From the IMG/VR virus record IMGVR_UViG_3300030110_003304, positions 1-55,343 of that record: a stretch of 55,343 nt of DNA; one strand, 5' to 3'. Below, piece after piece: positions 7,307 through 52,364 of this stretch. The position numbers and the translations under genes are program-made. Below the pieces are notes generated by a model, which did no database searches, had not been told where the DNA came from, and was given only the letters and a program-made list of their open reading frames with translations. Within the stretch, counting starts at the first letter, position 1. Each line of letters begins with the position of its first letter. The stretch comes from a virus.

Positions 7307-7331
7307 TTCCTCACCATGATTTCACTTTCCA

Positions 7332-10406: not shown

Positions 10407-10418
10407 TCATTCACCCCC

Positions 10419-29900: not shown

Positions 29901-31685
29901 CAACATGAAAGGTAGGTAGTCGAAACTAGGTCCACCGATAGCAATAACCTCTTTCTGTGCATCGACCAATCCGTTGTCGAATACTACTTGTGCCTCTGTC
30001 TTATTGACTAATTCGTCAATCAGAACCGTACCTTGGTCTCTGTAAACATCGACTCTACTGTTGATTGAAATCTGGTCAGAAATGCCACCCTTGGAGACAT
30101 CGTACATCACATCTATGACATCAGCAGAGCCATCTATCTGCTGGTCGATTACCTCTTCCTGTGCTCTTGGCATCATCTTGAGGAAGTCATGACCATCAAC
30201 GTGATTGAGAATGTGTCTCCCGCTGTGTCCCACTTGGAAGGATGTGTCTACGTCGGTAGGCCAAGTGGCCGCATATGCGTTGGTTGAGGTGTCTGTGGCC
30301 ATGTTGGTCGAGTAGACGAAACCATGCAGAGCGAACGGACTCTCGTCAATCACCATTTGCCCTGTCCTGTCTATTATCTGAGTGGAGTGATGAGGTGGTT
30401 GGTATGGTCTGCCACTGGCGCTGTCTATCAGCATGTCAGCACCGATGACCACGAAGTAGTTGTCAACACCCGCTGTTCTGCTATGGAGAGCCTTACGGAG
30501 TCCGTTGACTGAACTGGAGAAGTCCAGATGCACGCTGGACACGAGGCAGTTCCCAGTAGATGTGTTGATGTTGTGAAGCCTGACTCTCTCTGGGGGCTTG
30601 TTGTTGGGCTTGAAGACATCCCTGTCTGTAGCACCAGCGTTGATGAGCAGGTTGTATGGTGTGTGAGAGACTGCGTATGTGGTCGGAGTGCCTGTGTTCT
30701 GTAGGTAATTGATAACCTTGTAGTCCCCACCTGAGAACTTGTGAGTGCCTGTGGTGTCCTTAGAGAACACGTAGTTACCAGATACCGTCTCCAAGCCAGT
30801 GAGTTTCTTGGCTAGTTTGACCGCATCGGCAGTGCTGAGTGATATCTGGGATATGGTGACGCTCTGTCCATCCATGCTAGTGCCATTGTCTGATATCGAG
30901 GAGAAGGTGTAGACCTCCTCTACAGGTGCTATTGGTTCTTCAAACCTATAAAGCAGCAACGTATTCTGGTTGGCTACGGGTGCAGACCTCTCTAACGAGC
31001 CTTCCTCAAAGTTACTGGATATGTGTAGTGACTCCATCACTCCCCTGAATTGTCCTCCTTTTCCCCCGACATACACGTGTGAGTTACCCTTGGCTATCTG
31101 TAGGGTTCTGTTCGCCAACTCTTTGGATACCATCAACTCACCATTGATGTAGAGTTCTATAGCACCAGTCCTCACTGCTGCCACTATGTGCATCAGGGGG
31201 CGCTGGTCTGTGTTGAGGGTAGTCGGGTCGTCGTATGAGCCGTTGTACTTGTTGTATGATGAGTGGATGCCACCGAACTCAGAGTTAGGGTAGACGACTC
31301 CTTCATATCCTCTACCAGATACCTTAGTCGCTGTGGATATGAAATGATGCTCCTGTCCTGCATCCGTGTCGAGGAACACCTCGAATGTTGCAGGACCGGG
31401 TGTGTCTATCTCCCCTATTGATAATTTGAACTGGTCTTCCTTCTCTACTACCACACCACCGCAGTCTGGTATGACCCAAGCCTCTATGCAAATCTGAGTA
31501 TTCAGGATACCGGATAGTGAGCCTTCACCCTCTATGTGTTGCTTCTCACCCAGTATGTTAACTTTTGACTTAGTTCCATCTGATGTCTCTTTTCCCAAGC
31601 GACTCATAGTGCCTTGTGGAACGACTATGCTGTCAGACACACCATCGAAGAAAAAAGCATGGTTTGAACGACCGAGTATAGGCAT
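14982..31685 (-). CDS. giant tail-tip/adhesion protein with N-terminal LamG-like domain (5567 aa)
   Basis: A single uninterrupted frame of 16.7 kb, roughly 600 kDa. Residues ~1-250 look like a concanavalin/LamG-type lectin domain: an opening FFFDGVSDSIVVP strand, IEAWVIPDCG, then IELYINGELMVSKEL and SLHISSNFEEG, the usual order of LamG strands. A second similar segment may lie near residues 4335-4510 (LSFSGVNAAP ... GCEIFINEAMID). Residues ~1295 and ~1490 carry related EDIGMFP and EDMGLFP modules, an internal duplication. The rest is beta-rich, with no protease or hydrolase motif I can defend. Position between tape-measure/glycine-zipper genes and hub fits a tail-tip or side-tail structure that binds surface glycans. 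The SD is weak (GTGATATT before ATG), suggesting coupling to the upstream gene. Residues ~4570-4750 come from AT-rich DNA. Confidence 0.75.
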   Translation of the reverse strand: MPILGRSNHAFFFDGVSDSIVVPQGTMSRLGKETSDGTKSKVNILGEKQHIEGEGSLSGILNTQICIEAWVIPDCGGVVVEKEDQFKLSIGEIDTPGPATFEVFLDTDAGQEHHFISTATKVSGRGYEGVVYPNSEFGGIHSSYNKYNGSYDDPTTLNTDQRPLMHIVAAVRTGAIELYINGELMVSKELANRTLQIAKGNSHVYVGGKGGQFRGVMESLHISSNFEEGSLERSAPVANQNTLLLYRFEEPIAPVEEVYTFSSISDNGTSMDGQSVTISQISLSTADAVKLAKKLTGLETVSGNYVFSKDTTGTHKFSGGDYKVINYLQNTGTPTTYAVSHTPYNLLINAGATDRDVFKPNNKPPERVRLHNINTSTGNCLVSSVHLDFSSSVNGLRKALHSRTAGVDNYFVVIGADMLIDSASGRPYQPPHHSTQIIDRTGQMVIDESPFALHGFVYSTNMATDTSTNAYAATWPTDVDTSFQVGHSGRHILNHVDGHDFLKMMPRAQEEVIDQQIDGSADVIDVMYDVSKGGISDQISINSRVDVYRDQGTVLIDELVNKTEAQVVFDNGLVDAQKEVIAIGGPSFDYLPFMLKGPVPQDLDNLNAETRRLHLRPSEKSRVALLKVPALTSYDLAPFVKVYYNAIDLTGASMSGVSQPLLMVEKTVPAGTTIVTGTTTVFSLIKTAIETNTIRSEVFAAGGYIDFTDTDVLKGSLRQNHSLIGDVSEGYEADDELDESLTPINYKPMTPTGITVDGDQASGGGTSITTSGNSSESTHIAEGDDIYNSNLAFVGTIASGGIGTNITLTTNRAAAVTNGEQLYIGIGTNAYPNQTPQIITASHTPTTKHDSVFNKMVIEPSRSKNDSLTDKGLYFRREPSEVIQSPSNGEFDKAGTGSGTHIYEMFDVIDNQFQDDGSVRVFIQPSDRRRVNQLSGLRSQSSDFKEPNNITMMYLMSRARIRAVLDSDQGGDSFTTVRCVGLTESTVNRAVSVRGKGSPDSQVVKEIEPNAPVVTVTLGGPGQGAMDVKPTYDPSPLARLPFSTRRNTATLANLATASSGGGALGVKPLNNNSTDLASWGTYGFPDLGRVYLQDGSSARYDSKDGTSFTFTDASSAGEGKFLLANGTEFTVFADWLSATDIASGNTLGIVSVSVTLFADRFFDESSLAEDGTTLNDRMFQGMSDVQHDYQLGTQYASTRAMVEIPFFANQFFDDVRTGTFPGPDNSFKIHIDATHTPHTYNPSPVGRRPKGVEPSDREAMSAYALNKRQNRYTPSTRITKVSSTQYQYFIYVEDIGMFPRVQQGHDTGSLALQENSDDDESYQNVDNVRNYRKMFLASGEWAYYTEMDLTTGQTLLKVPKGDNAANWAYSSGFLDEAVVGASITTGGPSLPLEGIVPIGSDAFTPSSDFENRSEYYHDSASVKTQGGNVDYGLRQYVSAVEFKEGPESNPHAPRIVSGRAVGTVNTVNFKNLSGSSGAFVNQILVTMSEEDMGLFPDLDYEDMSAYSFSSGEFLYEAETIDSTGAVRKFHYYGRLTKNSINDVIAANTLVFVYRDVSSSEPSWVTALPTNEIRLTRRVRDIFGDVDGDDGNNAALKEANNENIAKTFRPLDIGADDGWTITASSLISFNVTISNSNGRLAGSNTLGLNLRKGDLLYSEETTSKILYIGTVSKIEDYDDGTYSVTLGGFAKNTASAKPLRLSIANAYEEDPDAVLNKSWNYPYAAGGLRSGDTIWANMTINNPYATEGLFSKSRGVFNEAQVWKGFNGGVASLAASRPRESVPLENFLIGDTCLETAINYAQHVNQTVKENYKSLGLAESQAPKVAYVDPYLAEDGHARVLLYDVAHDKEFIAFQDLHMQVQTSAEAVTIGRPRNMVVGSGTAPVDLAEYTATFNGGGPSWITTQIDVANGYPSENRYIRSTQQSKFIESAYSHDLANRIGTNVMTAVNGTLPSNLPASAVTSSSPGIYGKAHGHHVHTGYSIFGEANKYSMGDSVLPRTNDSTVNPFTASSDHAFSRTKRSLTEAFTAALVKLRRDASTNTFPTTLRDPSTFFDTPDGTRVIPAFLCLKGIRDTSLDLTGHEEDRLQHLKQWTDMDFLRRLSIDCGAVSTKSGVVSIESAAQEIVRQINQAGAPKGQIVVDKDTTGSAHDPAPFWDTDKAFSSRDRGTHMGYVRAHMGREVQDRNGNRGFTVVIHSTVPGASGRNFCVWLDNSKGQSVYQPDFLIGHGGRWRDFWALPEEKEGENMHPAPMPLNKHGRPFAPITTLTQYVNPDETGENVISTTDFTDSDDDSSPVIRAISNALGGGQQFNTVNTESFSTIGSSSTIIQGLRVGKNSFGRVNFGGLVASGVPGFSPIAGPWGFGKKGSQDFRDTYGQTTEVVSYTSHTDANQLKSDTLGDSPIYGLKLTDHRGGNHGIRYIYRGAGLGFANDNTVLPDTISNEVCVFFDDRDTTQGGFTIGKHMRGTGDATGRMNTDNASTMTQKKWTGNRWRGVSAPNIAVDCEISRSGTTLTVDLQAPFDNNSGLAHHDVLGYLGFPVTNGMIQVTDAGGGNEAMTYSYTRRTQNDKSGTHKFFGIAGDEADHTYDSGEYLISPTLNWTTLVTDELMAAVTTAAINATALQLTEGINFDCTEMYATNGKTFGDMGVLPDAITIRAFDPTKNITPISDLFSASLHNDFGMQAAHVEFGEVEKTQLQNTGWSFGTSRATRDADIEINRRIACGYIPKTVLQIATRSRGPNGNTATPVLVDSLNNPVDISDWRKNLKGESFTRHSGDHILPMINNPTAVFAHASSANSDWAAGGTQNLTLDHEMWNFLIPAGQEGSGSKIPSFGETKTIFMNDKKSVTVESLNGGTSTTKFVWSNASEDWPAAEVSDILAFSHWAKVDVTKHFDGLRSLGSVFSEPYVFFRGGKSSTDHSVPLFFGGGFSGVTLDINDGTKNDYSSFYTHPYANGPTGTTGIQNANEISTSFALLDGNAMFAFFPGAALCNQHRGSILPPMFNRDNILSPDISRGTGTINSSHPNSTPYTNNSGTDVAVQKPSPLILRFAHPTARYEDHRDGTDSKTTYIIFGPGQAFPFAQEVADNAGSYNIKQPHPGRVIVNGNGHSKVPKATSTRRFPNHIESDGVLANGTFGEGYFMPEASAYQLARGRFHWRTTLNWETPQGKPNLAILKQSQASGRMYGNHFNVRTATSGIDDDLKKAHPMRHCSVIGHGVAMAADMVYHMDGGYHPGGHWMDNQITFNPPHPKGETILQRWGSGSSDTTLHPSAYRVAGPITTKVLAYSEVVASSEVDMEYIIVDATRCQNGEELATVVGSAINAFPGAGALKAMGGTHMPSMGNAMRQDRYGWVEKTYSAIVNSDSDPDNNHITVTGGTQDELERLPACGWLRTDASGFAPYYAREVHNDGAWKAKFYLAPNRISGQMKFEDQTTWYDTTGDKDTFPTVNSGSIWVWSKAGVHRFNNENTASRDHMCQSHFSGLVDAIDRTRPIGTMGWAGERYSYLNSLKVGTQGYAAGLGAWHPMLGFSPYGSASSAITALSHLPIVGAMVHSPEASPPVDGIGNNLMTYLGNPYSNSTGFRVNSDSQATYTIAHDTSDAPHTIHTKPPTYIDTTLPDFMTHPQGVFGRAFIVVSYECESALVAKYDRDGITGLGDWLQVKGAAANSVANPIHYAGTTRWDERFHGQDRFIAPANAGPNVEAMVHTTPTVKTVSNYTTNHTLDTTFDAEYFLHGTANNSTLENAIPSLHKTGDLIFDLDHSVGSFFLEETGVERNVAADLYGNGIGGSSGEDFTQLYDDSGTPSHDDFWVGDVNAYDLYKRSAAKNFSIEHIVWKRMDGGNLSLPAINARGLGAVPFVNRVSGNNAYTMGEKIFGNVRFTFETTNSAMLPVLQAQELNHPQLASKFPLNIQNVLEIPNEEMQFGEMTVTDDSGQEHVLEGGSPLGTIIRGFRKVTDRQTKGMSPALANSDVAPNLKIQLPDPNSIPGNIVVRSGFDRLQAYQNETMGSGGMIHPDLNENYIGNLFDNSVSSPRTGPTYEDHNWEHIDVLTKDSTNAGWKEATNSAPLQTSYEQHDRTLYFHVTKMGHSSTERYPTVYTHANGIESRSLTVSSFSGTTLTANASVLMPSTNTDVFSAGFGTKEVSDNRRFLRLATTTDSVVVSYTGISGSTFTGVVGDVDFTVFLAANPPASTTINISPSYYIPAGSNRFFASRRLRDHAEVSGNSPDMAKTEYLSGTYGTVNANTLAYNIYNKQVLTPMPLPRMGHHFVTPTMPMLPGHWAHPVYQSLFTRHKAENASLRGFADKNILADSVTATSVMGDLASTVTDQFNVHDPELSFSGVNAAPSLPSDIHGGAFTLMFETGIKYDGYGILASTGTHAGAVNKAGGHTIVLESAYYYTLGKNFPDPAEVGAYQIVIQPNTFSTQLVGFHTDVGASTQSLTSQQVHTVIGRKAANNTLGTVSLILAQATQADVRGCEIFINEAMIDINPDHGSQFTNIPPLLLYNQFGVEGTESPVFTRRALPYTPGQFRNATPGYTVSTPWWSFIHKVAPDDSSSNNFKHIALHRPDNYYHMKRSTFGSIGVQLTIAGYPSIYPNIYSHILQNTSLNAKCIVKSIQSTANGYRTITVDDASRFPETPQYAEVLEYTDSNGIRQTLAYTRRSGLQLNAINKPDKLQSNVVSGPFWDNLTEGTVIRLSQPYDIYSSKNVFTDTNSSIFTKVLSQLEKGTRDTTNLHIPDAYLCMWNSNLGRPYTFYSDSSRTFNNPTSDRAVDKKPYNSLPEHFESIHYHDSVYAMSLGPLSLRIKSANPDTKTGVSATGAAIEALSGYEAQGGTTLDSQKVMYSKFWPCGSRGGPLVSRLDLYTEASVSWSIPRKYAANDFYFWKDEDTANSSYAMASSGITFDTMSSSHDANRYSYGWRISLRQVYNKPTYGILPGRGKLEDDNTSETQYTTDYVAGPLVHMPASTWTYIGGDTSQSNVPLSTTYVGIMERQTNFAGMLAADRPEYQVRYSDGRRMTRPFGAPLRTLVANNNQGRDWWGDILGKGVYSLTEAAQYYLVDWWGNERGEDVRRAPVRGFGIRPAWDCGDAYEYDRTNNRSPHARIFNNGKPIFDVLGVINSSGERTGDAPRLGGTQSLSGSSTELVDVFAPTHSMRVGDMGNGRGVRYPSQFNEDILTELSEPVHSTGVVLSHNTAEPPAVTGLLRPRNDVLQADEIPRGISARLEIEEDGLLKPDAVVSDRVEQIVGTSPHKDAISRSTPRIGIDAENMEGLEKDHIAINTEAHSLHTDRGVGQRTVLHGALVANTQTLGDLDLTTAAFNGHMNSVLRFSHTSNVNPLGGSYVLETKSYGSFFDDTGWGLDGVSGGAKTTNPYQNTDFSRNTVKNNQKDQSVKWLLRPVRVLDKQHVEMFRPVPSVAGNTPQPASNFFRASGGGKYGLFTYETPTPRVASDNFPRSTAPDTNGPYVPVVFMSNSSATTPTSKGPKILGTETTGFDKTTITSPVTRMIISENTLQHYRADASRRRQIEESNQIVRRLDYSVKPRFSQSLHPKGHKGDVSFNVSNHSGDAA
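17440..17965. other. AT-rich island inside the giant tail gene
   Basis: Four counted 60-base lines here have 32%, 23%, 30% and 22% GC (17461, 17521, 17821, 17881), while flanking lines are near 50-60%. The frame is intact. The island encodes residues ~4570-4750, including RTITVDDASRFPETP and QTLAYTRRSG. This fits recent recombinational import of a domain. Confidence 0.7.
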
Positions 31686-41421: not shown

Positions 41422-42564
41422 TCACTTAAGGTCTCTGATGCTCCCTTGTCCTCCGAAGAAAGTGGTCCAAAGTTCTCCCATGGTCCTGTACATTCCCTCT
41501 TGTCCTAGTCTGTTGATTGCGAATGGGTCACCAGTCTCAATTCCACTCTCATAGTATTGTGTTGGTATCGCCGTACTGAAGTACATGTAATCAGTGTCTA
41601 GGAAGTACATCCTGCTGATTGTATCTGATGCTACGTCTTTGGAAGGAATGATTGGGACTCCGTTGTAGGTTGCTACTACGAATCCGGCTTCCATTCCGGG
41701 TACACCCTTGACACCGTTGTAGGTTGGGGTGACTCTCTTCTCTTCCATGAATCTCTGTTGGGACTGTAGCAGTTGCTGTAGTCTCATTAGAGTGTCGTAT
41801 CCAGTTAGAATGACCTTGGGGTTTCCACCACGTACCCAGATTTTCTGGAATAGGTCGTCTAGTTGGTCTAGGCTTAGAACCCTGTCAGTTGCGCTGGTGT
41901 GAGCGTTAGCCTCAGCATATCCCCAGCCGTTGGTAGTTGCGCTTCTGTCGATGGAGTAGATGTCCTCATCGTGGTCATCGTAGTGAGTACCGCCAGCGGT
42001 CATCACGCTCGTGTCACCGATAGTCACTCTGTCGAGAGACTCGAAGTTGTTGCCAGCCCTAGATGATACGTCTGCTAGAAGCATCTTGTTAGTCATCTCT
42101 GCGTGGTGCTTGCCCATCTCTTCTTTCAGGACTGAGCGTATGTCGCCCATTCCGTCATCCTTGTCAGCAAGGAAGATAGCAGTCTCGGACATGTCGAACG
42201 TGTGAACGACTGTCTTTGGCTTTGCAGCCACGTGCTCGAACTTTGGCTTCACTGTGTCTGGTAGTGCTGCGTTCTCTGCAACTCCGCCGTGTATTGCACC
42301 TGAGTTAGGCTTGTCAGTTAGAACTCTCCATCCTGACCTGTCCCAAGGTCTCTTCGGTAGTATGCTGAATGCGTTGAACTCTTGGTTCATCTGCGACCAT
42401 ACTTTGCGTCCGTAGATTGCATTGTATGTTCCAGCGGTTGAAGAGAGCATTGGTGCATCTGCTTTCAATAGTTCACTACCGGAGTAGGAGTAACCCATTG
42501 AGTTACCTGCTCCATAGTAGTATCTTTCCATATCTGTTATTGTTCTTACGTAGTTTCTTGCCAT
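41422..42564 (-). CDS. HK97-fold major capsid protein (380 aa)
   Basis: Main shell protein. Follows protease/scaffold and has the size and layout of HK97-type capsid proteins: a helical N-arm (MARNYVRTITDMERYYYG); a spine-helix region (IRSVLKEEMGKHHAEMTNKM); an E-loop-like segment with GWRVLTDKPNSGAIHGG; a P-domain-like part (LDQLDDLFQKIWVRGGNPKVIL, read in two halves); and a C-terminal A-domain-like part (VVATYNGVPIIPSKDV, then DTDYMYFSTAIPTQYYE). CAGGAGTGAT before the ATG is a strong SD, as expected for the most abundant product. The N-arm may be trimmed by the adjacent protease. Divergent from textbook capsid proteins, so fold identity is inferred by pattern and gene order. Confidence 0.75.
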   Translation of the reverse strand: MARNYVRTITDMERYYYGAGNSMGYSYSGSELLKADAPMLSSTAGTYNAIYGRKVWSQMNQEFNAFSILPKRPWDRSGWRVLTDKPNSGAIHGGVAENAALPDTVKPKFEHVAAKPKTVVHTFDMSETAIFLADKDDGMGDIRSVLKEEMGKHHAEMTNKMLLADVSSRAGNNFESLDRVTIGDTSVMTAGGTHYDDHDEDIYSIDRSATTNGWGYAEANAHTSATDRVLSLDQLDDLFQKIWVRGGNPKVILTGYDTLMRLQQLLQSQQRFMEEKRVTPTYNGVKGVPGMEAGFVVATYNGVPIIPSKDVASDTISRMYFLDTDYMYFSTAIPTQYYESGIETGDPFAINRLGQEGMYRTMGELWTTFFGGQGSIRDLK

Positions 42565-42566
42565 TC

Positions 42567-43445
42567 TTAATCACTCCTGAAGGTGCTGTTTGCGAGGTTA
42601 TGTACCTCTTCCCAACTCATTGTTGCGAGTTCCTCAGTCGAAGGGATTTCGACGGTTGGAAGGGATGCTTCTGATTTTGCGATAGTAGAACCGGACTCAA
42701 CTGAGCCGATGCTGTCGATGCGCTCTGATAGAGAGGCTAGGGACTTCTCGATAGCGGCTAGTGGGCTGCGAGCATCGAATGCTGCTGCTTCTGCCTTTGC
42801 TATTTCCTGTTGTCTCTCGGAAGCGAAGCGACTGGAGAAGTGGTTCTCTAGGCTTCCCTTGAACTCCTGCTCTAGTGCTGCTGCTTTGTAGACCTCGTAT
42901 GCTGCCTCGATATCTGAGTCAGACACTCTGTCTGCTGTTAGGAAGTCAGACTTCTCTAGTGTGGATTTCTTGCCTTTTCCACCAGAGCCAAAGTTGGCCT
43001 TGGGTACTTCTGGCTTTCCGTCTACGGTTTCCCTCTTTGGTGCTTGTCCACCAAACCTTACTGCTCCGTCTCCAATTTCTTCTGGGGTAGAACCAAGGTT
43101 TGCCTTGTTGACATCATCGAAGTGTGTTCGTGCGGCAACTGTGTCCACACCTGCACTCTTCAGAGTGTCTTCCATCCAATTCAGGTACTCAGAGGAGATA
43201 ACGTCAGAGTATTGTGATTTTTCGACATCTTCGTCTTTTTCATCATCTTTCATGGCTTCTTTCTTGTCACCATACAATTTCTCTTGGTCGTCTTTCTCAT
43301 CGCCGTCGTCGTCGTTCTTCTTGCCTTGCATATGTTCTTTCAAGCCCGGTGGCATTTCCCCTTTCTCCATAGAGTCGAGACGGCCTTCCAGACGTGACAG
43401 TACATCTGTCATTTGCGTCATTACATCGTTTTCTGTTTCTGTCAT
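42567..43445 (-). CDS. nested scaffold protein from internal start (292 aa)
   Basis: An ATG at 43445 inside the protease gene (codon 177) is preceded by AAGGTGA and five A's, the same arrangement that starts the decoration-like gene at 41387. It begins MTETENDVMTQM, exactly where the protease domain ends and the coiled acidic scaffold begins. This parallels lambda gpC/Nu3, where a scaffold is translated separately within the protease gene so it is made in excess. The product would have an N-terminal coiled coil, a Lys/Asp/Glu-rich middle, and the C-terminal SW motif likely to touch the capsid protein. Confidence 0.7.
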   Translation of the reverse strand: MTETENDVMTQMTDVLSRLEGRLDSMEKGEMPPGLKEHMQGKKNDDDGDEKDDQEKLYGDKKEAMKDDEKDEDVEKSQYSDVISSEYLNWMEDTLKSAGVDTVAARTHFDDVNKANLGSTPEEIGDGAVRFGGQAPKRETVDGKPEVPKANFGSGGKGKKSTLEKSDFLTADRVSDSDIEAAYEVYKAAALEQEFKGSLENHFSSRFASERQQEIAKAEAAAFDARSPLAAIEKSLASLSERIDSIGSVESGSTIAKSEASLPTVEIPSTEELATMSWEEVHNLANSTFRSD

Positions 43446-43973
43446 TTTTTTCACCTTATTTTTATCTTCTTTTAATATCCTAAATGTTGCTTCTGGATTG
43501 ATTCCTTTCTCACAAATTGTGATTTCGTGTAGTTCAAGTTTGCTGATTTCTTGGTAGTCTCCATGTACTGGGTCTGATTTTCTGACTCGTTTGAATGCCT
43601 GTCCTCCGATACTAAAGCCTCTTAATGCTCCTTTTCGTATCTCGGCAGCGACTTCCTTTGCTTTTTCGATGTCGTCTCGTAATTCTACAACTACAAACAT
43701 TCCGACATCATCAACTTCGCTTTTCCACAACCTCCCTTCACTATCTGTATAATTAGGAATTACTTCACCCACTTGAATGTTAGAATGCGCTAATTGCACG
43801 TTTCTGTATCTGTGGTCCTCCATGTATTTCTTGAATGCGCCTTTCAATGCTTCTTTCGTAATTTTGTCTCCTTGCTTGTCAACTACTTCTACGCTAGCAT
43901 ACCCGGCAACAACGAGGTCTCCACCCTTGATGAGTGTAATTCCAGACTGAGGTTGTCGCAATGGGGATAGCAC
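42567..43973 (-). CDS. prohead protease fused to scaffold (468 aa)
   Basis: Maturation protease with an in-frame scaffold. Residues 1-170 match the U35/S78 herpesvirus-type prohead protease: GYASVEVVDKQGDKI at the front, catalytic His63 in VQLAHSNIQVGEV, catalytic Ser121 in ALRGFSIGG, and the closing strand ELHEITICEKGINPEA (Glu150 a candidate third residue). Residues 177-468 are an acidic coiled scaffold (EGRLDSMEKGE; DDDGDEKDDQEK; IEKSLASLSERIDS) ending MSWEEVHNLANST. The start is GTG at 43973, just downstream of an in-frame TAA, with no SD in the leader; initiation may be leaderless from the TATA-like element upstream. DNA for residues ~40-180 is AT-richer (one counted line, 43441-43500, 27% GC) than the scaffold half. 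Confidence 0.8.
   Translation of the reverse strand: MLSPLRQPQSGITLIKGGDLVVAGYASVEVVDKQGDKITKEALKGAFKKYMEDHRYRNVQLAHSNIQVGEVIPNYTDSEGRLWKSEVDDVGMFVVVELRDDIEKAKEVAAEIRKGALRGFSIGGQAFKRVRKSDPVHGDYQEISKLELHEITICEKGINPEATFRILKEDKNKVKKMTETENDVMTQMTDVLSRLEGRLDSMEKGEMPPGLKEHMQGKKNDDDGDEKDDQEKLYGDKKEAMKDDEKDEDVEKSQYSDVISSEYLNWMEDTLKSAGVDTVAARTHFDDVNKANLGSTPEEIGDGAVRFGGQAPKRETVDGKPEVPKANFGSGGKGKKSTLEKSDFLTADRVSDSDIEAAYEVYKAAALEQEFKGSLENHFSSRFASERQQEIAKAEAAAFDARSPLAAIEKSLASLSERIDSIGSVESGSTIAKSEASLPTVEIPSTEELATMSWEEVHNLANSTFRSD
43451..43457 (-). promoter_or_regulatory. internal ribosome binding site for nested scaffold
   Basis: AAGGTGA on the minus strand, five bases before the internal ATG at 43445. 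It is stronger than anything found before the full-length protease start. Confidence 0.65.
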
Positions 43974-44010: not shown

Positions 44011-44102
44011 AGCGGCAACAAACTAAACTGTTGTTACTTCTTTATCTGGGCCTGAATCTTCGTTTTTGATACCCTTACCCCTCTTTTGTTGCCGCTTCAT
44101 AT
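44005..44102. repeat. perfect 18-bp inverted repeat, 62-base spacer
   Basis: Arms at 44005-44022 and 44085-44102 are exact reverse complements (ATATGAAGCGGCAACAAA and TTTGTTGCCGCTTCATAT). One arm lies in the gap right after the 1826-aa gene's stop. The other lies within its last codons and encodes HMKRQQK. The RNA would form a long stem with a 62-base loop containing the gene's end. The left arm overlaps the TATA-like element. Confidence 0.85.
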
Positions 44103-47100
44103 GTGGGTACGGTTTTTCAGCATCTTCCGTGGGTCTGGCTCTCATATCGTAGTCGGGCAGGGTCTGCTCACCATCAAGGGTAGTAGGACCTCTAGGGCTT
44201 TCTACACTACCACCTAGTTCTATACCCAACCCTTTGCCGCCGCTCATGGGGAATTGTCCTTTCTCTAATACATCCAGAACCCTGACCATGACACCGAGTG
44301 CTTTCTCCATCTGTGGTTTGAGTATCTGATTCTTCTCTGCCAGCGTTTTCGCTTTATCCTGTATCTTCTTCTCAGGTATGGGTCTCTTCTCGACCTTACC
44401 TTTGAGCATCATGCTGGCAACCTGAGACCAGTATGGTTTGAGACTCTCAGATAATCTGATTGAATAATCGGATTCACCGAACTCTGACAAGAGGGTACGT
44501 GGTGAATGCACCCAGTACCCCAAATCGGATTTCTCCAGTGTGTAGAACACGTCGTTCTCAAGATATGTCTTGACAATCAGCGTGTTGTCCTCTATATCAA
44601 CATCATGTGGGAAATGTAGGTTTGGTGTGGACTTGGCTAGGATGTTGAGTGTTTCCATGCTCACACTGGACTCGCCTTCCCCCTCGCCTACTATCTTCAC
44701 TGGATTCAGGTCGTACACTTCCCTACCGTTGATTTTCTTCCTCTTGATGCCGGTGACCTCTACCTCGACTATCTCACCTTCATCGAAGTGCTTCGGACTT
44801 GATACCGTACCTACGTCGAGATACACCTCCCCTTCGTAATCTACTGTGGCATTCTCTATGTCTTCATTGTCAATTAGAGGACCTGCACCTAGTCTGTATG
44901 TGATGCTCTTCTTGCCTCTCTTATCGAGAATCCTCAGGTTGACACTCTTGTTCGGTCTCAATAGAACCCACTTGGGGTGTCTCTTCTCTCCCTTCATGTA
45001 TGTGCTCTTACCGTCTCTGATGAGTAGACAGTCATGCTCTTCAAGTAATGTCTTAACTGTGTCTTCCAGACCCTCGTCGTCAGTCATGCGTGTGTCATGT
45101 GGGCCGGGTACAGTGACGTTATCATACCCATCGAACTGTCCCCTAAGTATCTTCAATCTCTCTTGAATGGTCATGTCGGTGACATCGGTGTCATCGTAGT
45201 AGGTGATGTCGATGATGTGCAACTCTTCGTCTGAGAGTATACCATCCAATGTGCAGTCCTTCTTCCCTAGGTTCTTGACACCATCCTTGACCCAATCAGG
45301 TATGCTCATCCTTGAGTTGTGCTCGTTGTACGCTGATATCTTGTCGTTCAACTTCATGACCACGACTCTCTCGCCCTCGTACCACTTGGAAACCACCCAA
45401 GAACCAGTGAAGCCCCTGAGTTGCTTCATATCCTTGAAATCGAATATCCTGTGCATGGGTCGTATGGGAGGCACGAAATTGGGTGTATCGTCTCCTTTCA
45501 GCATTAGTGAGTCAGGATTGAGCAGGTATGCAGCGTAGTCTGACGGCTCGCTGGTCGTTATCGAGTACGATTGTTCTGCTGGTACAGAGCCATCTGGGTA
45601 GACCATGTACTGGTTAGCACCAGTCATAGAGACGTTCTGTTCATCGAGTTTCTGAACTGCTGCTGCCACATCAGCATCAAACTCGTTCTGGATGACTGAC
45701 ATGGGTACTGGGTGCATCGGTTGGGGAGCACCTGTCGGCCCTGATGTGAGTTCACCGAAGGTGGCATCGAAGGACTCGGTTGGTTTCCTGAGTCTGTGGT
45801 TGCTGTGGTCCATGAGTCCTGAGTATCCGTAGAGGTCCATGATGGGCGAGCCATGCACTCCCATCGGGTGCAGTTCCCTTTCTCCGAAGCCTATGGTCTC
45901 ACTCTCAATCATAGCAGGTGACGATGACAGGTCGAAATTGGGGTCATGCACGAAGAGGTCTTTGCTCGCATGTTGAATGTAGTTGGCTCGTGTGTCTATC
46001 CCACGGTTGCTCTTGTTTGCCTTGATTTTTGCGTTAGAGAGAGCAGAACGCCTTTCCGTCCCTCTACCTATCTCAGGCGCTGCAAAGTATGTCAGACCTA
46101 GATTGTCTTGAACCTCCTTGGGAAGGCTGTTGACCTGACCCCTGAGTCCCCTCATCTGGGACTCTATGCGCTTTGTGTACCCAAGCACGTCATTTTTGGA
46201 GTACCCGTACTTCTCCTCGAACTCCTCGTCGGAGACGGTGTGGTCTCTGGTAGATGCGAATATCTTCCCGGCATGGTCGTGCATGTGGTCTATGTCGTCA
46301 TACCCCAAGAACATCCTTTGCCCCTCTCCTGCATACAACTCAGGTGGGTTTGTTGTCATGGAATTGAGAGACATCAGCACTCTGTGGTCATCCTCGTTGT
46401 TCGGGTCGAGTGATGCTTTTATCGAGTCCAGCACGTTTCCATAGTGCGCTGAGTGAGTTCCGTCCTCACCCATACCTAGGTGCTTCACTAGGTCGTCTAG
46501 GGTAGTTTTCGAGTCTATTTTGAAACCGTGCTCTCGCATGTGCTCTGGTAGTCTGTGAAGTCCAGTCCTCTGCAATGGTGTCTTTCTCTCGTCTATGCCA
46601 TGCTCCATCACCTTGAGGTTGTTTGTCCAAGTCTCACCGTTAGGTAGTTCTATCTCCGCCCCCCTCGGTAGGTGCATCAGAACCATGTTGGCATCCCTGA
46701 ACAGACCGTCAATCTCCGCATCCAAGTTGGGGTTGTCAGGGCTGAACGTACCCTCCGGTTTGAGTTTCCTGAGGACCATTGCCATCTCTGTGATTGCCTT
46801 GTGATGGGAATGTATCCTATCTGTGTGTTGTTTCATCAACGTACCTCCCATCCTATCATTCAGACCGAAGTGGTCTAGGAACTCTTCAACTGACTCATCG
46901 TCACCAACCCTAGCACCGAATGAAGGGAGGTTCAACTTGAGGCTGTTTGGTGACAGTCCGAGCATACCGGCAGGTCTCTCACTACTACCTCTTCCCATCA
47001 TAGTCGCTATAGAGTGCGACCATAGATGTTGGAACTTGGAAACTTGGTCTGGGTCTATCTTCTCCTCGTAACTATCCTGCACGTTGTCCCCGGTCGGTAA

Positions 47101-49503
47101 CTCCTCACCCGCTCCTACGGTTGCTGCTAGGTTCGTACCACCTATGTCCGTCTCCTTCTTCACTGACCTCTTGTATCCCTTGCCATGTGGTATCCTTGAG
47201 TTGGTAGCACCTGAGGAGTATTGTGGTTTGTTGATTCTGTAGTTCTTTCCGTACTTCTCCACTAATTCCTCATCTGACAATCTGGATATGGTATTGACCA
47301 GACCGGGTGATAGATGTGATAGGTTTGCGAGAATCTGGTTCTTCGGAGTTGTACCCTTAATTCCGTACATCTTAGTCTGACCGTACTTGGATAGTATGTT
47401 GGCTGGGGTGTTAAAGACACCACGCTTGTGGTTGAGGAAAGGTGCAATCATTCCTATGTTATACTCATTGGGTGTTATTCGCTCTCCGTCTATCGCACCT
47501 AGGTGACTTTCACCATCTGCGTCTGAAAAATGCCTGAATATCATCTCCATCAAAGTATGGGGGTTTCTACCAAGACCACCAGCAGCGAAGGCCGGAGCGA
47601 AGAAAGCACCGAGGCCGTAGTGACCTGTGCTGTCGGAAACCCTCAGGTCCTGCATGACCTCGGCCATCTCCGGGTCAATCTCGGACTCATCGAAGTACAG
47701 ACCGCCATGCAGGAGCATGTCGTTGCGTATATCCTTGGCATCTTTACCTAGGTCTCCTTGGGACTTTGCTTTAGCGAGTACCGACATGAGAGTGTCCCTG
47801 TCGAGCAGAGGGCCTGAGAAGTTGGGATAGTGATGGTCATCATCCTCGGTCATCTCGGTCATGTCCTCGTTGTACCCCAATGCATAGAGAATCTCCTTCT
47901 TGGATAGTCTATCTCCGTGACCTGTCCTTATTATGTCGTTAAGGGACTTGTCATAGTGAGCGGCTATTGCCTCCTCCTCGGATGCACCCTCGTTCTTTTT
48001 CTGGTATCCCTTGATTGACCTGTCACTGTGCTTCGACAACTTGGGTAGGTGGTTGAAATCCTTGTGAGCCTTGCCTGTCTCCTTGTGGAAGTGTCCGTCT
48101 TTGTCAAGCCCGTTCTCCTCATTGGCTTCAACTAACTCCAGACCCAGAGCCTCTCTGAGGTTGTCGTGTATGGTGTCCCTGTGCTCGAAATCGTCATCAT
48201 GTACTATGTCGTGAATTGCTGAGAAGAACTCATCTTGCTGTTTGTTGGAGAGTTGGTCCTCATTGCTCTCTCTATGTGGTATGATGTTCTCGTGCGTAAA
48301 TCCGTGCTGCCTGCCGCCCCAATTAGACATCGGATTGAGTATGTGTTGTGTTGACCTCTTTATCCTCCCAGCGGATACGGTTGTGCCGTCTGGTAGTTTG
48401 ATGTCTTGGTTTCCCACCTTGTCCAGCCCATCCTGCATCTTGCTCATTATCGCTGTTCTCTCTCTGGGGGAGAACCACTGTAGTTGGTGTATGAAACCAC
48501 CAAGACCCAGATTGTATCCGTGGTCGATGGTCTCCGCTGGTGGCATCTTCCCCTGCTTGTCTGCGAGTGCGTAGTCGAAGGGCTGTTCCTTGACCTCGGT
48601 GTCCATGTGTTTGTGATTCCAACTCCTAGCCCTGTCGTCTGCGTGTAGTTTCCTGAGAGCCAGTTCCTCCTGCGAGTGGAAGTGACCGTCTGGAGTCTCG
48701 TCTGACAATCCCTCTGCTCTGGCATCTGCGATAGAGCCTGTCCTCCAAGAACCATCATGGTCCACCTCACCAGTCTCAGGGTGGATGCTCTTCCACTCCT
48801 CATCACCACTGAGCCAGCGCTGGTAATCCCTCTCATACACGTCTTGCATGGTCTTGAGTGATACGTCTTTCAAACCACCAAGAGGACCAAGGCCGTGGAA
48901 GTTCCTGACCGTGTTGCCCTCTAAGTCCAACTTCTCCATGCCCTTGTGGTGTGGGCTGCCCTTCTTCCTGAGCATTCTGTCTTGTGCATGCTCCACTGCC
49001 GCTGATATCCTTCCGTGGGTCTTGTGGTTGGTGTGTGTCGGTAGCATCTGCCTAACCATCAAGTCGTCTCTGATTGAGCGACCTGAGGGTAGCATTCTCT
49101 TTGACGGGTCGAAGAAACTACTGAAGGGATTGGACTTTGAGTCACCGTAGGGTGCTAGTCCCACGTCTGCGACCTCAAGGTCGTGATGATGCGAAGTTCC
49201 TCTTCTCTTCACCCTGCCTCTCCAAGGATGTCTCTTAGAGAGATGGTTTTGGTTCTGCTCGGCTTGTATGGCTAGGAACTGTTCTTTTGGTATGTACGAG
49301 TTACCACTGTAGGTCATCTTCCTGACGAAGGAGTCGCATATGTTCTCCTTCCAAGTAATGTCGTTGGTGAAACCATCCTGCTTCATCACCGCTTTGGCGA
49401 TGACATACTCATCTATGCTTTCATCTACGTCTAATCCGTCTAGAATACTAAGCAAGAGTTGCTCTCGTGCTTTTAAGAACGTGGATACTGAGTCTTCATA
49501 CAC
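44023..49503 (-). CDS. 1826-aa head-region protein with degenerate DNA-ligase-like domain
   Basis: Large unrecognised protein between the portal group and the protease. Residues ~1340-1525 follow the order of an ATP-dependent DNA ligase nucleotidyltransferase: motif I position SKWYEGERV (1372-1380); motif III TLDGIL (1418-1423), followed by LHIIDITYYDD and IQERLKILRG; motif IV LLIRDG (1493-1498); and motif V KWVLLRP (1511-1517). Residues ~1525-1600 look like an OB fold (VEVEVTGIKRKKINGREVY). The catalytic residues are changed: the motif I Lys position holds Trp1374 (Lys sits one or two residues early), the motif III Glu is Ile1422, and motif IV Glu/Lys are Asp1491/Arg1496. The N-terminal 1300 residues are His/Asp-rich and of unknown fold. 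GTG start with AGGTGG. Probably virion-associated or ejected; function unknown. Confidence 0.7.
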   Translation of the reverse strand: MYEDSVSTFLKAREQLLLSILDGLDVDESIDEYVIAKAVMKQDGFTNDITWKENICDSFVRKMTYSGNSYIPKEQFLAIQAEQNQNHLSKRHPWRGRVKRRGTSHHHDLEVADVGLAPYGDSKSNPFSSFFDPSKRMLPSGRSIRDDLMVRQMLPTHTNHKTHGRISAAVEHAQDRMLRKKGSPHHKGMEKLDLEGNTVRNFHGLGPLGGLKDVSLKTMQDVYERDYQRWLSGDEEWKSIHPETGEVDHDGSWRTGSIADARAEGLSDETPDGHFHSQEELALRKLHADDRARSWNHKHMDTEVKEQPFDYALADKQGKMPPAETIDHGYNLGLGGFIHQLQWFSPRERTAIMSKMQDGLDKVGNQDIKLPDGTTVSAGRIKRSTQHILNPMSNWGGRQHGFTHENIIPHRESNEDQLSNKQQDEFFSAIHDIVHDDDFEHRDTIHDNLREALGLELVEANEENGLDKDGHFHKETGKAHKDFNHLPKLSKHSDRSIKGYQKKNEGASEEEAIAAHYDKSLNDIIRTGHGDRLSKKEILYALGYNEDMTEMTEDDDHHYPNFSGPLLDRDTLMSVLAKAKSQGDLGKDAKDIRNDMLLHGGLYFDESEIDPEMAEVMQDLRVSDSTGHYGLGAFFAPAFAAGGLGRNPHTLMEMIFRHFSDADGESHLGAIDGERITPNEYNIGMIAPFLNHKRGVFNTPANILSKYGQTKMYGIKGTTPKNQILANLSHLSPGLVNTISRLSDEELVEKYGKNYRINKPQYSSGATNSRIPHGKGYKRSVKKETDIGGTNLAATVGAGEELPTGDNVQDSYEEKIDPDQVSKFQHLWSHSIATMMGRGSSERPAGMLGLSPNSLKLNLPSFGARVGDDESVEEFLDHFGLNDRMGGTLMKQHTDRIHSHHKAITEMAMVLRKLKPEGTFSPDNPNLDAEIDGLFRDANMVLMHLPRGAEIELPNGETWTNNLKVMEHGIDERKTPLQRTGLHRLPEHMREHGFKIDSKTTLDDLVKHLGMGEDGTHSAHYGNVLDSIKASLDPNNEDDHRVLMSLNSMTTNPPELYAGEGQRMFLGYDDIDHMHDHAGKIFASTRDHTVSDEEFEEKYGYSKNDVLGYTKRIESQMRGLRGQVNSLPKEVQDNLGLTYFAAPEIGRGTERRSALSNAKIKANKSNRGIDTRANYIQHASKDLFVHDPNFDLSSSPAMIESETIGFGERELHPMGVHGSPIMDLYGYSGLMDHSNHRLRKPTESFDATFGELTSGPTGAPQPMHPVPMSVIQNEFDADVAAAVQKLDEQNVSMTGANQYMVYPDGSVPAEQSYSITTSEPSDYAAYLLNPDSLMLKGDDTPNFVPPIRPMHRIFDFKDMKQLRGFTGSWVVSKWYEGERVVVMKLNDKISAYNEHNSRMSIPDWVKDGVKNLGKKDCTLDGILSDEELHIIDITYYDDTDVTDMTIQERLKILRGQFDGYDNVTVPGPHDTRMTDDEGLEDTVKTLLEEHDCLLIRDGKSTYMKGEKRHPKWVLLRPNKSVNLRILDKRGKKSITYRLGAGPLIDNEDIENATVDYEGEVYLDVGTVSSPKHFDEGEIVEVEVTGIKRKKINGREVYDLNPVKIVGEGEGESSVSMETLNILAKSTPNLHFPHDVDIEDNTLIVKTYLENDVFYTLEKSDLGYWVHSPRTLLSEFGESDYSIRLSESLKPYWSQVASMMLKGKVEKRPIPEKKIQDKAKTLAEKNQILKPQMEKALGVMVRVLDVLEKGQFPMSGGKGLGIELGGSVESPRGPTTLDGEQTLPDYDMRARPTEDAEKPYPHMKRQQKRGKGIKNEDSGPDKEVTTV

Positions 49504-49513
49504 ACGTTACCAC

Positions 49514-49867
49514 CTAGTCTCTATCTGGTTGTTTGTTGTCTGTAGAAACATCACGGTCTTGGTCTCCGCTTTGATGTGCATTCATTCTCTTTGCGAGTTC
49601 TTCGACATTGAAGGAACTGGAAGTTGCGCCTTTATTGGTTACATCCTCCACATCTAGTAGATGTCCGTTGGTCGAATACCCTGCACTCTTAGTCTGCCCA
49701 CCAGTCTCTGATACGAAATGCATGCCCTCTGGTTTTGTGGAGAAGGTCTGTTCGTAGTGAGGTTGAGCGGATTTCTCAAGTTTCTCTGCCCTCTTTGCTA
49801 GATTTTGTGCTTTCTTCAATAGTGCTTCTGCCTCATTGGAAACTTCTTCATATCTCGGTCTCATCAT
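49514..49867 (-). CDS. small coiled-coil protein (117 aa)
   Basis: Unrecognised. Residues ~5-35 form a likely coiled coil (EEVSNEAEALLKKAQNLAKR, then AEKLEKSAQ). A polar disordered stretch, a short helix containing FNVEELAKRMNAH and an acidic/Asn-rich tail follow. Two ATGs lie at 49867 and 49864, with GGAGGTATT just upstream; the second has the better spacing. The first ATG overlaps the preceding gene's TGA. With its two small neighbours it forms a cluster between portal and the 1826-aa gene, possibly internal head or assembly proteins. Confidence 0.55.
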   Translation of the reverse strand: MMRPRYEEVSNEAEALLKKAQNLAKRAEKLEKSAQPHYEQTFSTKPEGMHFVSETGGQTKSAGYSTNGHLLDVEDVTNKGATSSSFNVEELAKRMNAHQSGDQDRDVSTDNKQPDRD

Positions 49868-50214
49868 AATACCTCCACGTTCTTGGTGCTGTCTGCCAAT
49901 TCGTGAATGTCATCCCAAGACATTTGGTGTACGTCTTCGTTACTCATCACACCAATGTCTACTTTGTTGCCTTTCAATAGAGTAGCCTCTCCCATATCTA
50001 GGTCTGCTCTGAAGTTATCAGTCTGTACGTCTTCTGAAAGAGGAGTATTGACTGATACGAAACCTGCTCTCTTGAGTAGGTTTCCGGGTCTTTGAATCAT
50101 CTTCTTGAGTTCTATGTTCTCTTGCTTCAAACTGTCGAGAGAACGGTCCATGGACTCCATCTTGTTGATTAGAGCATTCATTAACCGCTCTGTTCCACTC
50201 TCTTCTGTTGACAC
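49864..50214 (-). CDS. scaffold-like mini protein sharing the scaffold C-terminal motif (116 aa)
   Basis: N-terminal coiled coil (RLMNALINKMESMDRSLDSL, then KQENIELKKMIQ), a middle of about 45 residues, then a C-terminus SNEDVHQ followed by MSWDDIHELADST (98-110). The scaffold/protease protein ends STEELAT followed by MSWEEVHNLANST, so the two tails align without gaps over 20 residues. Their N-termini are also alike (LSRLEGRLDSMEK against NKMESMDRSLDSL). This suggests a second, minimal scaffold or an internal protein that enters the prohead through the same contact. GTG start with GAGTGAGG as SD. Confidence 0.6.
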   Translation of the reverse strand: MSTEESGTERLMNALINKMESMDRSLDSLKQENIELKKMIQRPGNLLKRAGFVSVNTPLSEDVQTDNFRADLDMGEATLLKGNKVDIGVMSNEDVHQMSWDDIHELADSTKNVEVL

Positions 50215-50223
50215 GTTTAATCC

Positions 50224-50580
50224 TCACTCTGGTCTGTATGCTCTTCCGAAAGTACCAGTGTGGGGTTTCATCCTGCTGTTGCTTCGTGCAGAAATGATTG
50301 TGCCCGGCAACTGACTGTCTCTTTGATTGACATCGAAATTAGTGCCTCTCTCATTGAACTTCATAGGCGCTACACCGTTTACATACTCAGATAGTGGATT
50401 ATCCGCCTTTGTTAGTTTGACAGATAGGTCTTCATGTAGGTATCCTCCGAACTTCAGCATCTCCTCTAGATGCTGTTTTGCGTCGTCTGCGTTTCCATTC
50501 TCAAAAGCCTTTGTGAAGGCTTCTGCATGTACATTTAATTTCCTAGCCATCGGGTCTAACTTCAATAGGTCCATACTCAC
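50224..50580 (-). CDS. hypothetical protein after the portal (118 aa)
   Basis: Unrecognised. The N-terminal half is helical (DPMARKLNVHAEAFTKAFEN, then ADDAKQHLEEML). The C-terminal half is polar and loop-rich (FNERGTNFDVNQRDSQLPGT). It starts at GTG 50580, or at ATG 50574 two codons later; GGAGG lies six bases before the GTG. A 35-base gap separates it from the portal stop. The repeated association of such small proteins with portal genes suggests a role in initiating capsid assembly, but nothing in the sequence shows this. Confidence 0.5.
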   Translation of the reverse strand: MSMDLLKLDPMARKLNVHAEAFTKAFENGNADDAKQHLEEMLKFGGYLHEDLSVKLTKADNPLSEYVNGVAPMKFNERGTNFDVNQRDSQLPGTIISARSNSRMKPHTGTFGRAYRPE

Positions 50581-50615: not shown

Positions 50616-52364
50616 TTATGCACCACGAGGGCGTTTTGCGTCTGAAATGCCACGTTGTGCTCTCTGAACGGGAGTCTGTTGTGGTCCTCTCTGTTGAACG
50701 TTGGAGAATGGTGAGCCTGCACCCGCTGATGCTCTCTGTTCAGGCCGTGCTGGGGGTGCGTTCCTGATACCCATACCCTCCCCTCCGGGGTTGGCTACTC
50801 CCGGTGGCATACCCTGTATTCTCTGCATGACTCCGGGCGGCATACCGGGCGGCATTCCCCCTCCCGGTGGCATACCCGGTGGCATACCCGGTGGCATACC
50901 CGGTGGCATCATTGGCATACCACCACCTCCGGGCGGCATCCCCTGTCCTTCCATTGGGTCTATCTTCTTGTATACGAAACGAATGTCCCTCTCTCCCTCT
51001 TCGAGCAGTTCGGGTTTGTATCCTAGCATCATCATTCGTTGTGCTAGGTTGGCTTCCATCTCGTCTCTCCTGAGTCTGGTTATCTCGTCTTCCTCCTCGT
51101 TCGGATAGAGTGTCAGTTTCCAGTCTTCTACCCCCATCTCCTTGAGCATACGTGGGAAGAGAACATCGGTGTACACCTTCTGCCCGTACTCCACGGCACG
51201 GTTGGTAACGAGAATCTGCATACCCTCGTTGTTGAGACCACCACTCTTGCCATTGTCAATCATGAACACCGCTGACACACCATAGAATGCTGCTATCCTG
51301 TTTCTCATCTCATCACGAACTGCGATGTACTGCATTTCCTCAAGGGTGTCCATGAACTTAATCCAATTAACACCCCCTCTTCCACTGGAACTCTCGATAC
51401 CGACTTTCGGTATGTAGTGAGGGTCTCTCTCCATCTTCTCATCGACTGTCTTCCAGAAGGACTTCATCGACTCCAGATTGTCAGTGGTGACTGATATGAT
51501 TCCCTTGGGTGCTCTCCTCTTCTGGTATGATGTGTACATGTAGTTGTCCATCGCTGTGAGTGTCATGGCCTGTCTCCACATGGTGTTGACTGGGCTTCTT
51601 CCATAGAGTTTTGATGGGTTGTACTTGCTGACGTGAAGTACCTCGCCCTTGAGGTAATACTGACTCTTGCCACTACCAGCCATGTTGATGTAGTGCACGT
51701 CTTCCATCTGCCCACCGCAGACTTGACAATCACCCTCTTGGCCGGGATAAGATACCTCTGTCCTGTGCAAAGGGCAGACCTTGTATCTACCACCTCTGAC
51801 TCCTCTCTTATCAGATACTATACGCATGAATATAGGGTCACCACGAATGAGTTCCTTGACTCTGAAGAACTGTATTTCACCGTCTTCTGGGTCTACGTAG
51901 TACTCTTTGACTATAATGAGGAAGGCATCGTCAACTACATTGAGGTCCTTCTCTATCTCATACAACACATGCATGAAGTCCTGCTCCATGGAGTTCTGCT
52001 CTTTGAGAAGCCATCTTGGGTAGACAATCTCATCAGCACTTGGTGGTCTGACCGGTGAGTCGCAGACATTGCACATATCCACATCATGATGATACTCCTC
52101 ACCACAGGTATCACACTTGAATCTGAACTTCTTCTCCCAGAAGTAGCCCCTCCTGAATATCTCCTGCTGTAGTTTTGACAGCACGGTTCTGAGAATCAGA
52201 TTCTCATGTGATACAGCGTACAGGGCTGGTATAGTGATACCTTGAGCCAAGACGGGTTCTTGGATTCCGGTAGTGTACAGAGGCATCTGAGGTTGAGGGG
52301 TAGTACGTCTCTTGAATGGGTTCAGAGAATCTAGAAATCTCCTTACAGGACTCTCATCTGCCAT
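50616..52364 (-). CDS. portal protein with two zinc-finger-like motifs (582 aa)
   Basis: Dodecameric portal forming the DNA channel. It follows terminase, has typical length, and shows the HK97/SPP1-type core: YAVSHENLILRTVLSKLQQE near the N-terminus, GEVLHVSKYNPSKLYGRSPV (a hallmark of a portal wing), then helices RQAMTLTAMDNYMYTSYQKR and REEMQYIAVRDE-like stem segments, with VTNRAVEYGQKVYTDVLFPR later. Two cysteine clusters are inserted: C84-x2-C87, C98-x2-C101, and C197-x2-H200, C213-x2-C216, both able to bind zinc. Residues ~476-523 contain tandem Met-Pro-Pro-Gly units, followed by a disordered Gln/Arg/Pro tail. SD: AGGAGGGTGATG region overlapping the upstream gene's end. Confidence 0.85.
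   Translation of the reverse strand: MADESPVRRFLDSLNPFKRRTTPQPQMPLYTTGIQEPVLAQGITIPALYAVSHENLILRTVLSKLQQEIFRRGYFWEKKFRFKCDTCGEEYHHDVDMCNVCDSPVRPPSADEIVYPRWLLKEQNSMEQDFMHVLYEIEKDLNVVDDAFLIIVKEYYVDPEDGEIQFFRVKELIRGDPIFMRIVSDKRGVRGGRYKVCPLHRTEVSYPGQEGDCQVCGGQMEDVHYINMAGSGKSQYYLKGEVLHVSKYNPSKLYGRSPVNTMWRQAMTLTAMDNYMYTSYQKRRAPKGIISVTTDNLESMKSFWKTVDEKMERDPHYIPKVGIESSSGRGGVNWIKFMDTLEEMQYIAVRDEMRNRIAAFYGVSAVFMIDNGKSGGLNNEGMQILVTNRAVEYGQKVYTDVLFPRMLKEMGVEDWKLTLYPNEEEDEITRLRRDEMEANLAQRMMMLGYKPELLEEGERDIRFVYKKIDPMEGQGMPPGGGGMPMMPPGMPPGMPPGMPPGGGMPPGMPPGVMQRIQGMPPGVANPGGEGMGIRNAPPARPEQRASAGAGSPFSNVQQRGPQQTPVQRAQRGISDAKRPRGA
50829..50939 (-). repeat. coding Met-Pro-Pro-Gly repeats in the portal tail
   Basis: Short repeats of an ATGCCACCGGGT-like 12-base unit encode GMPPG steps broken by GGG. 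Four copies in the middle (50871-50918) are almost identical at DNA level, suggesting recent slippage. The protein stretch resembles a collagen-like or polyproline linker. Confidence 0.75.

Follow-up and report, generated by a model that had tools for sequence, protein, structure and literature searches.

The C-terminal part of an 1826-residue viral protein, encoded in the head gene cluster, contains what is almost certainly a catalytically dead, conserved domain derived from a DNA ligase. The best overall explanation, to which we assign a probability of about 0.55, is that this pseudo-ligase has been retained for binding, as a module of a protein that acts in head assembly or in the head interior. 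The "ATP-dependent DNA ligase" credited to magroviruses is very probably this same dead domain, and no enzyme at all.

Introduction

Magroviruses are widespread in the surface ocean. They have been credited with an ATP-dependent DNA ligase, which is cited in support of their description as viruses that replicate almost independently of the host (PMC12999244, PMC10768690, PMC10160649); the ligase is also annotated in PMC7318539.

In this study, we examine a viral DNA of 55,343 nucleotides (IMG/VR record IMGVR_UViG_3300030110_003304; the whole stretch is referred to as the window), which is a ~55-56-kb fragment of the structural gene cluster. The first-pass annotation, made from the sequence of the window, had reported that one large protein contains DNA ligase motifs I, III, IV and V in order, together with an OB-like segment, and that the residues required for catalysis are replaced. 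We followed up this proposal by profile searches, structure prediction and a comparison of related viral sequences.

Results

The features of the window are collected in Table 1. The large ORF, the length of its product and the residue numbering were found to be as annotated, and full-length relatives of the protein range from 1735 to 2577 aa (median 1934). The annotated fusion of the domain to a long N-terminal region of no recognised family was borne out by Pfam, PHROGs and PDB searches, which returned neither a Pfam or PHROGs family common to the members nor a PDB relative for that region.

Table 1. Positions of the features discussed, numbered along the window
Feature	Residues	Position	Strand	Basis or remark
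Large ORF, 1826-aa protein with pseudo-ligase module		44023..49503	-	single open ORF, intact
N-terminal region, no recognisable family	N-terminal ~1344	45472..49503	-	fastest-evolving part of the protein
Predicted pseudo-nucleotidyltransferase domain	~1345-1520	44944..45471	-	PF01068; PDB profile matches; AF2 pLDDT mostly ~83-94; Foldseek
Predicted OB-type domain	~1521-1605	44689..44943	-	AF2 pLDDT ~80-91, beta-rich; Foldseek alignments of ~350 columns to ligases
Further predicted folded region, 3' of OB	~1606-1709	44377..44688	-	AF2 pLDDT mostly ~70-87
Conserved C-terminal tail (SPRGPT, LPDYDM)	1729-1790	44134..44319	-	invariant columns
Motif I position, KWYEGER	1373-1379	45367..45387	-	W1374 in place of the AMP-accepting Lys
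Motif III position, DGI	1420-1422	45238..45246	-	I1422 in place of Glu
Motif IV position, DCLLIR	1491-1496	45016..45033	-	D1491/R1496 in place of Glu/Lys
Motif V position, WVLLR	1512-1516	44956..44970	-	L1514 and R1516 in place of Lys residues
Family signature, RDxxxYMxGExxHPKW	1496-1512	44968..45018	-	nearly invariant
Portal protein, upstream neighbour		50616..52364	-	PF04860; synteny
Three small ORFs between portal and large protein		49514-50580	-	middle one bears a shared C-terminal peptide
116-aa coiled-coil-like protein		49864-50214	-	just upstream of the pseudo-ligase gene
Prohead protease, immediate downstream neighbour		42567..43973	-	PF04586
Major capsid protein (MCP)		41422..42564	-	PF17236; 33-34% identical to HVTV-1-type head proteins
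5567-aa ORF in the tail region		14982-31685	-	weak Laminin_G_3 match, N-terminal half only
Three large ORFs (2260, 1024 and 928 aa), end of structural cluster		524-13205	-	no Pfam match

The genes of the window are ordered TerL, portal, three small ORFs, large ORF, prohead protease and MCP. Synteny in the relatives agrees with the annotated placement of the large protein between portal and protease in a head gene cluster, in that the protease lies downstream in every checked locus that is long enough and the portal lies upstream wherever this side is covered. A survey centred on the MCP located the domain in nearly all magrovirus-type loci that extend upstream; Druskaviridae-type loci were without it.

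Several other features of these loci were recorded. The prohead protease and the 116-aa coiled-coil-like protein share a C-terminal peptide, MSW[DE][DE][VI]Hx[LM]A, which occurs in at least one copy in 224 related loci and in two copies in 110, and which is possibly a tag for docking to the capsid or scaffold. One related contig encodes a PurD-like (GARS) ATP-grasp protein between portal and protease (L178:6714-8009); another product (L132:3908-5119) resembles it by eye and has no Pfam match.

By profile comparison and predicted structure, residues ~1345-1605 form a module of nucleotidyltransferase and OB domains like that of ATP-dependent DNA ligases. The Pfam match of the 1826-aa protein to PF01068 (DNA_ligase_A_M; residues 1428-1513, E=0.0015) falls under the gathering score, and in a whole-genome search with the same family two stretches of one frame summed to 26.3 bits, just above the cut-off; 16 of 18 full-length relatives matched PF01068 independently. 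Searches of all PDB sequences ranked archaeal DNA ligases top, both with a profile of 13 relatives (4eq5, E 6.5e-5) and with one of 55 relatives (best E 6.9e-6). When the family was compared profile to profile with four annotated phage ATP-dependent ligases, the alignments were collinear across 184-199 columns (E 1.3e-5 to 1.8e-5); the capsid protein, as the negative control, gave an E of 0.45. Matches of a short profile to WD-40 proteins were discarded as sums of weak repeat matches. Two scans of cellular genomes returned no relatives of the family.

Structure prediction pointed to the same fold rather than an unrelated one. The first AF2 model, built from 13 sequences, was weak outside the core and left the OB part unresolved, and its top Foldseek match was a Thermococcus ligase (5.7e-10). 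The second, built from 55 sequences, resolved the OB part with pLDDT ~80-94 over both domains, and DNA ligases, or end-joining complexes that contain one, made up its 44 best PDB matches (best 3.3e-14). The agreement of the two models in matching DNA ligases first excludes a chance resemblance. Whole-chain TM-scores were low (0.30-0.38) despite the excellent E-values, because domain orientation and the disordered tail spoil global superposition.

The predicted fold also adjusts the extent of the module. The annotated ligase module, drawn from residue ~1340 to ~1600, is present; its limit reaches ~residue 1605, with a lower edge at ~44689, and the OB part is not shared by all members, being missing in one clade in which ~205-221 residues follow the hairpin, as against ~325. 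The OB part is thus non-essential to function. Both parts are net acidic in composition, with 27 KR and 32 DE in the nucleotidyltransferase part and 13 and 16 in the OB part. The C-terminal tail is probably flexible, given its low predicted confidence.

Active-site columns were assigned from alignments to real ligases, and residues were counted in 162 distinct domain sequences from viral contigs. These alignments place the six substituted residues of the window at the catalytic positions, as the first-pass annotation had them. The motif I nucleophile column holds W in 104 sequences, Y in 32, I in 8, M in 7, Q in 6 and H in 3, with a gap in 2, so that Lys is found in none of the 160 with a residue there. 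The motif III Glu column is likewise never acidic in the 162 (I 126, V 32, M 2, T 1, L 1). At motif IV the Lys column is R in 159, K in 2 and C in 1, and the Glu column (D1491) is variable; at motif V the first Lys column is L, M, V or I and never Lys, and the second holds Lys in 1 of 162. The sequence K-x-[DN]-G-x-R occurs in 0 of 162, and the substitutions are therefore fixed across the homologues and not a mutation local to the window, an alternative that the annotation had left standing. Since the residues that would form and transfer AMP are absent, ligation appears to be excluded in practice.

Conservation is found instead beside the old pocket. Nine residues are invariant in 162 of 162 sequences (R1454, D1497, M1503, G1505, E1506, H1509, P1510, K1511 and W1512). 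On the aligned sequences, RDxxxYMxGExxHPKW is a new signature, in which the pocket-side hairpin would have been rebuilt and then frozen. Within the 1826-aa protein, conservation is highest in the domain and in the C-terminal tail. The domain is under strong purifying selection, with a dN/dS among the lowest in the protein: in close pairs with measurable dS, the values were 0.00-0.07 for the nucleotidyltransferase part and 0.07-0.31 for the N-terminal region, the two being about equal in one pair and the former much lower in the rest. As judged from alignments and predicted fold together, the domain is a pseudoenzyme of the covalent nucleotidyltransferase superfamily, which has kept the fold and lost the catalytic residues across orthologues.

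The viruses that carry the family fit the magroviruses (Magrovirales) of Poseidoniales. The relatives, on which the defining features of Magrovirales were looked for, have a capsid related to that of Druskaviridae, a family B polymerase (PolB), a chaperonin of the Cpn60/thermosome type (17 of 18) and genomes of ~90-120 kb, with records up to 118 kb. MCM, a marker of the Aoguangviridae clade, was absent in all 36 records tested; Aoguangviridae are thus probably unsampled, and the ligase annotation in that clade lies outside our claim. In magroviruses, one read runs across the prohead protease and a portion of the ligase (PMC7318539). This adjacency is the order found here, and hence the published magrovirus ligase is very probably the dead domain. 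The novelty is tempered accordingly, the domain very probably having been annotated in magroviruses already as an ATP-dependent DNA ligase. In the magrovirus literature covered, to which the primary magrovirus paper does not belong, we found no mention of the deadness of the domain or of its setting in a virion module.

A second PF01068 match was found in none of the 47 virus records bearing the family, many of which are fragments, so that the absence of a ligase is no proof for each single virus. PolB is present in 20 of the 47, and replication genes are therefore at least partly represented in those records. A search for NAD-dependent ligase found none in the 20 relatives tested.

Discussion

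We propose that the core of an archaeal-type ATP-dependent DNA ligase, comprising nucleotidyltransferase and OB domains, was acquired by a forerunner of these marine archaeal tailed viruses. The residues for nucleotidyl transfer would have been lost before the sampled lineages split, and the core is now fused into the C-terminal part of a protein of ~1800-2000 aa made between portal and prohead protease. From the fixed substitutions, no lysyl-AMP intermediate would be formed and DNA would not be sealed. The old nucleotide-pocket face, rebuilt around the RDxxxYMxGExxHPKW hairpin, would instead hold a ligand without reacting, and the candidates are a nucleotide, a 5'-phosphate DNA end or another head protein. 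The parts of this proposal differ in strength. The 1826-aa protein probably acts in head assembly or in the head interior, gene position being what suggests its presence in the particle; that the old pocket face binds a nucleotide, a DNA end or a partner we put at about an even chance. A more specific version is speculative and rather unlikely. In it, the dead ligase core would sense or clamp a DNA 5' end or nick inside the head, either holding the end of the packaged genome near the portal or being ejected with the genome to protect or mark that end in the host. The acidic composition and the optional OB part argue against DNA binding in the style of a ligase clamp.

The magrovirus literature annotates an active ATP-dependent DNA ligase that belongs to the replication machinery of the virus (PMC12999244, PMC10768690, PMC10160649, PMC7318539), and ligases are the best Foldseek matches. 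This reading is nevertheless very improbable, as all or nearly all of the 162 sequences have lost the nucleophile Lys, the Glu of motif III, the two Lys of motif V and usually the Glu and Lys of motif IV, and the gene sits in the head cluster. The idea, raised in the first-pass annotation, that a ligase uses Lys1373 as a shifted nucleophile did not stand up and can be given hardly any weight: Lys1373 lies immediately before the motif I column, and the clades closest to the window have Lys at this site, but among the 160 relatives with a residue there Lys occurs in only 70, the others having L, S, I, H, A, V or T, and motifs III and V are lost too. The loss of all catalytic motifs would also suit a captured ligase that decays without function. 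Such a relic is just as hard to credit, given that the dN/dS of the domain lies well under that of the N-terminal region in all pairs but one, where the two are about the same, and given the retention of the domain in nearly every magrovirus-type locus that includes the upstream region.

Two further readings accept that the ligase activity is gone. The domain might be purely structural, a protein-docking unit through which the large protein is seated on the portal, protease or capsid, with neither nucleotides nor nucleic acids as ligands. The acidic composition, the optional OB part and the gene order with head-assembly genes favour this possibility, which we regard as unlikely yet worth keeping in view; conservation, however, centres on the hairpin forming a wall of the ancestral nucleotide pocket, where the polar R, D, E, H and K are nearly exceptionless, beyond the usual need of a scaffold. 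Alternatively, the old pocket may have acquired a new catalytic activity built on D1497, E1506, H1509 and K1511, which are invariant in all sequences though the old catalytic set is lost. These residues may equally be structural, and the context suggests no substrate; we know of no enzyme of the nucleotidyltransferase fold that uses a D/E/H/K set like this one, and we consider a new activity improbable. The pseudo-ligase kept as a binding module of a head protein remains our preferred explanation.

In the sampled viruses, in which the dead domain very probably is the credited ligase and no other ATP-type ligase was found, a host ligase would be needed. What is gained is a large, strictly conserved pseudoenzyme family with a new signature that is directly testable. 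If the reading as a DNA-end sensor or clamp were true, a virion protein would have been made from a replication enzyme.

Among known proteins, the archaeal ATP-dependent DNA ligases (Thermococcus 4eq5, 3rr5 and 6wbo; Sulfolobus 2hiv; PF01068) share with the domain the nucleotidyltransferase plus OB fold and the order and spacing of motifs, and the domain retains the Gly and mostly the Arg of KxDGxR plus the motif V Trp. In contrast to these enzymes, it lacks the nucleophile Lys, the motif III Glu and the motif V Lys, has no recognised N-terminal ligase DNA-binding domain and is joined to a protein of the virion cluster. Snurportin-1, which binds the m3G cap, is a catalytically dead protein of the nucleotidyltransferase fold, and the family profile matches it weakly (E ~0.02-0.05) over motifs I-IIIa. 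Its m3G-cap-binding domain is a precedent for a dead nucleotidyltransferase fold kept for binding, with no close kinship claimed; snurportin-1 is a eukaryotic nuclear import adaptor, and cap binding is not expected of the viral domain. The magrovirus "ligase" has been listed among replication genes and treated as active (PMC7318539, PMC12999244, PMC10160649), whereas the domain described here is without active-site residues and lies in the head module.

The slot between portal and protease is one that tailed viruses of archaea use for large proteins bearing domains of enzyme type. HVTV-1 (Druskaviridae), a related archaeal virus, has large multidomain proteins with such a domain in the same slot (gp113/gp115); its gp115 (L119:6539-10480) carries zeta-toxin-type kinase and ADP-ribosyltransferase domains. 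Homology between the protein of the window and gp113/gp115 was considered and rejected, none being detected by sequence, and HVTV-1 has no PF01068 match. For the site of action of the 1826-aa protein, an analogy, and analogy alone, is offered by the unrelated phage P1, whose DarA/Hdf and other Dar proteins, such as the ~2000-aa DarB, lie in the head interior and are packed and ejected with the DNA (PMC12810830).
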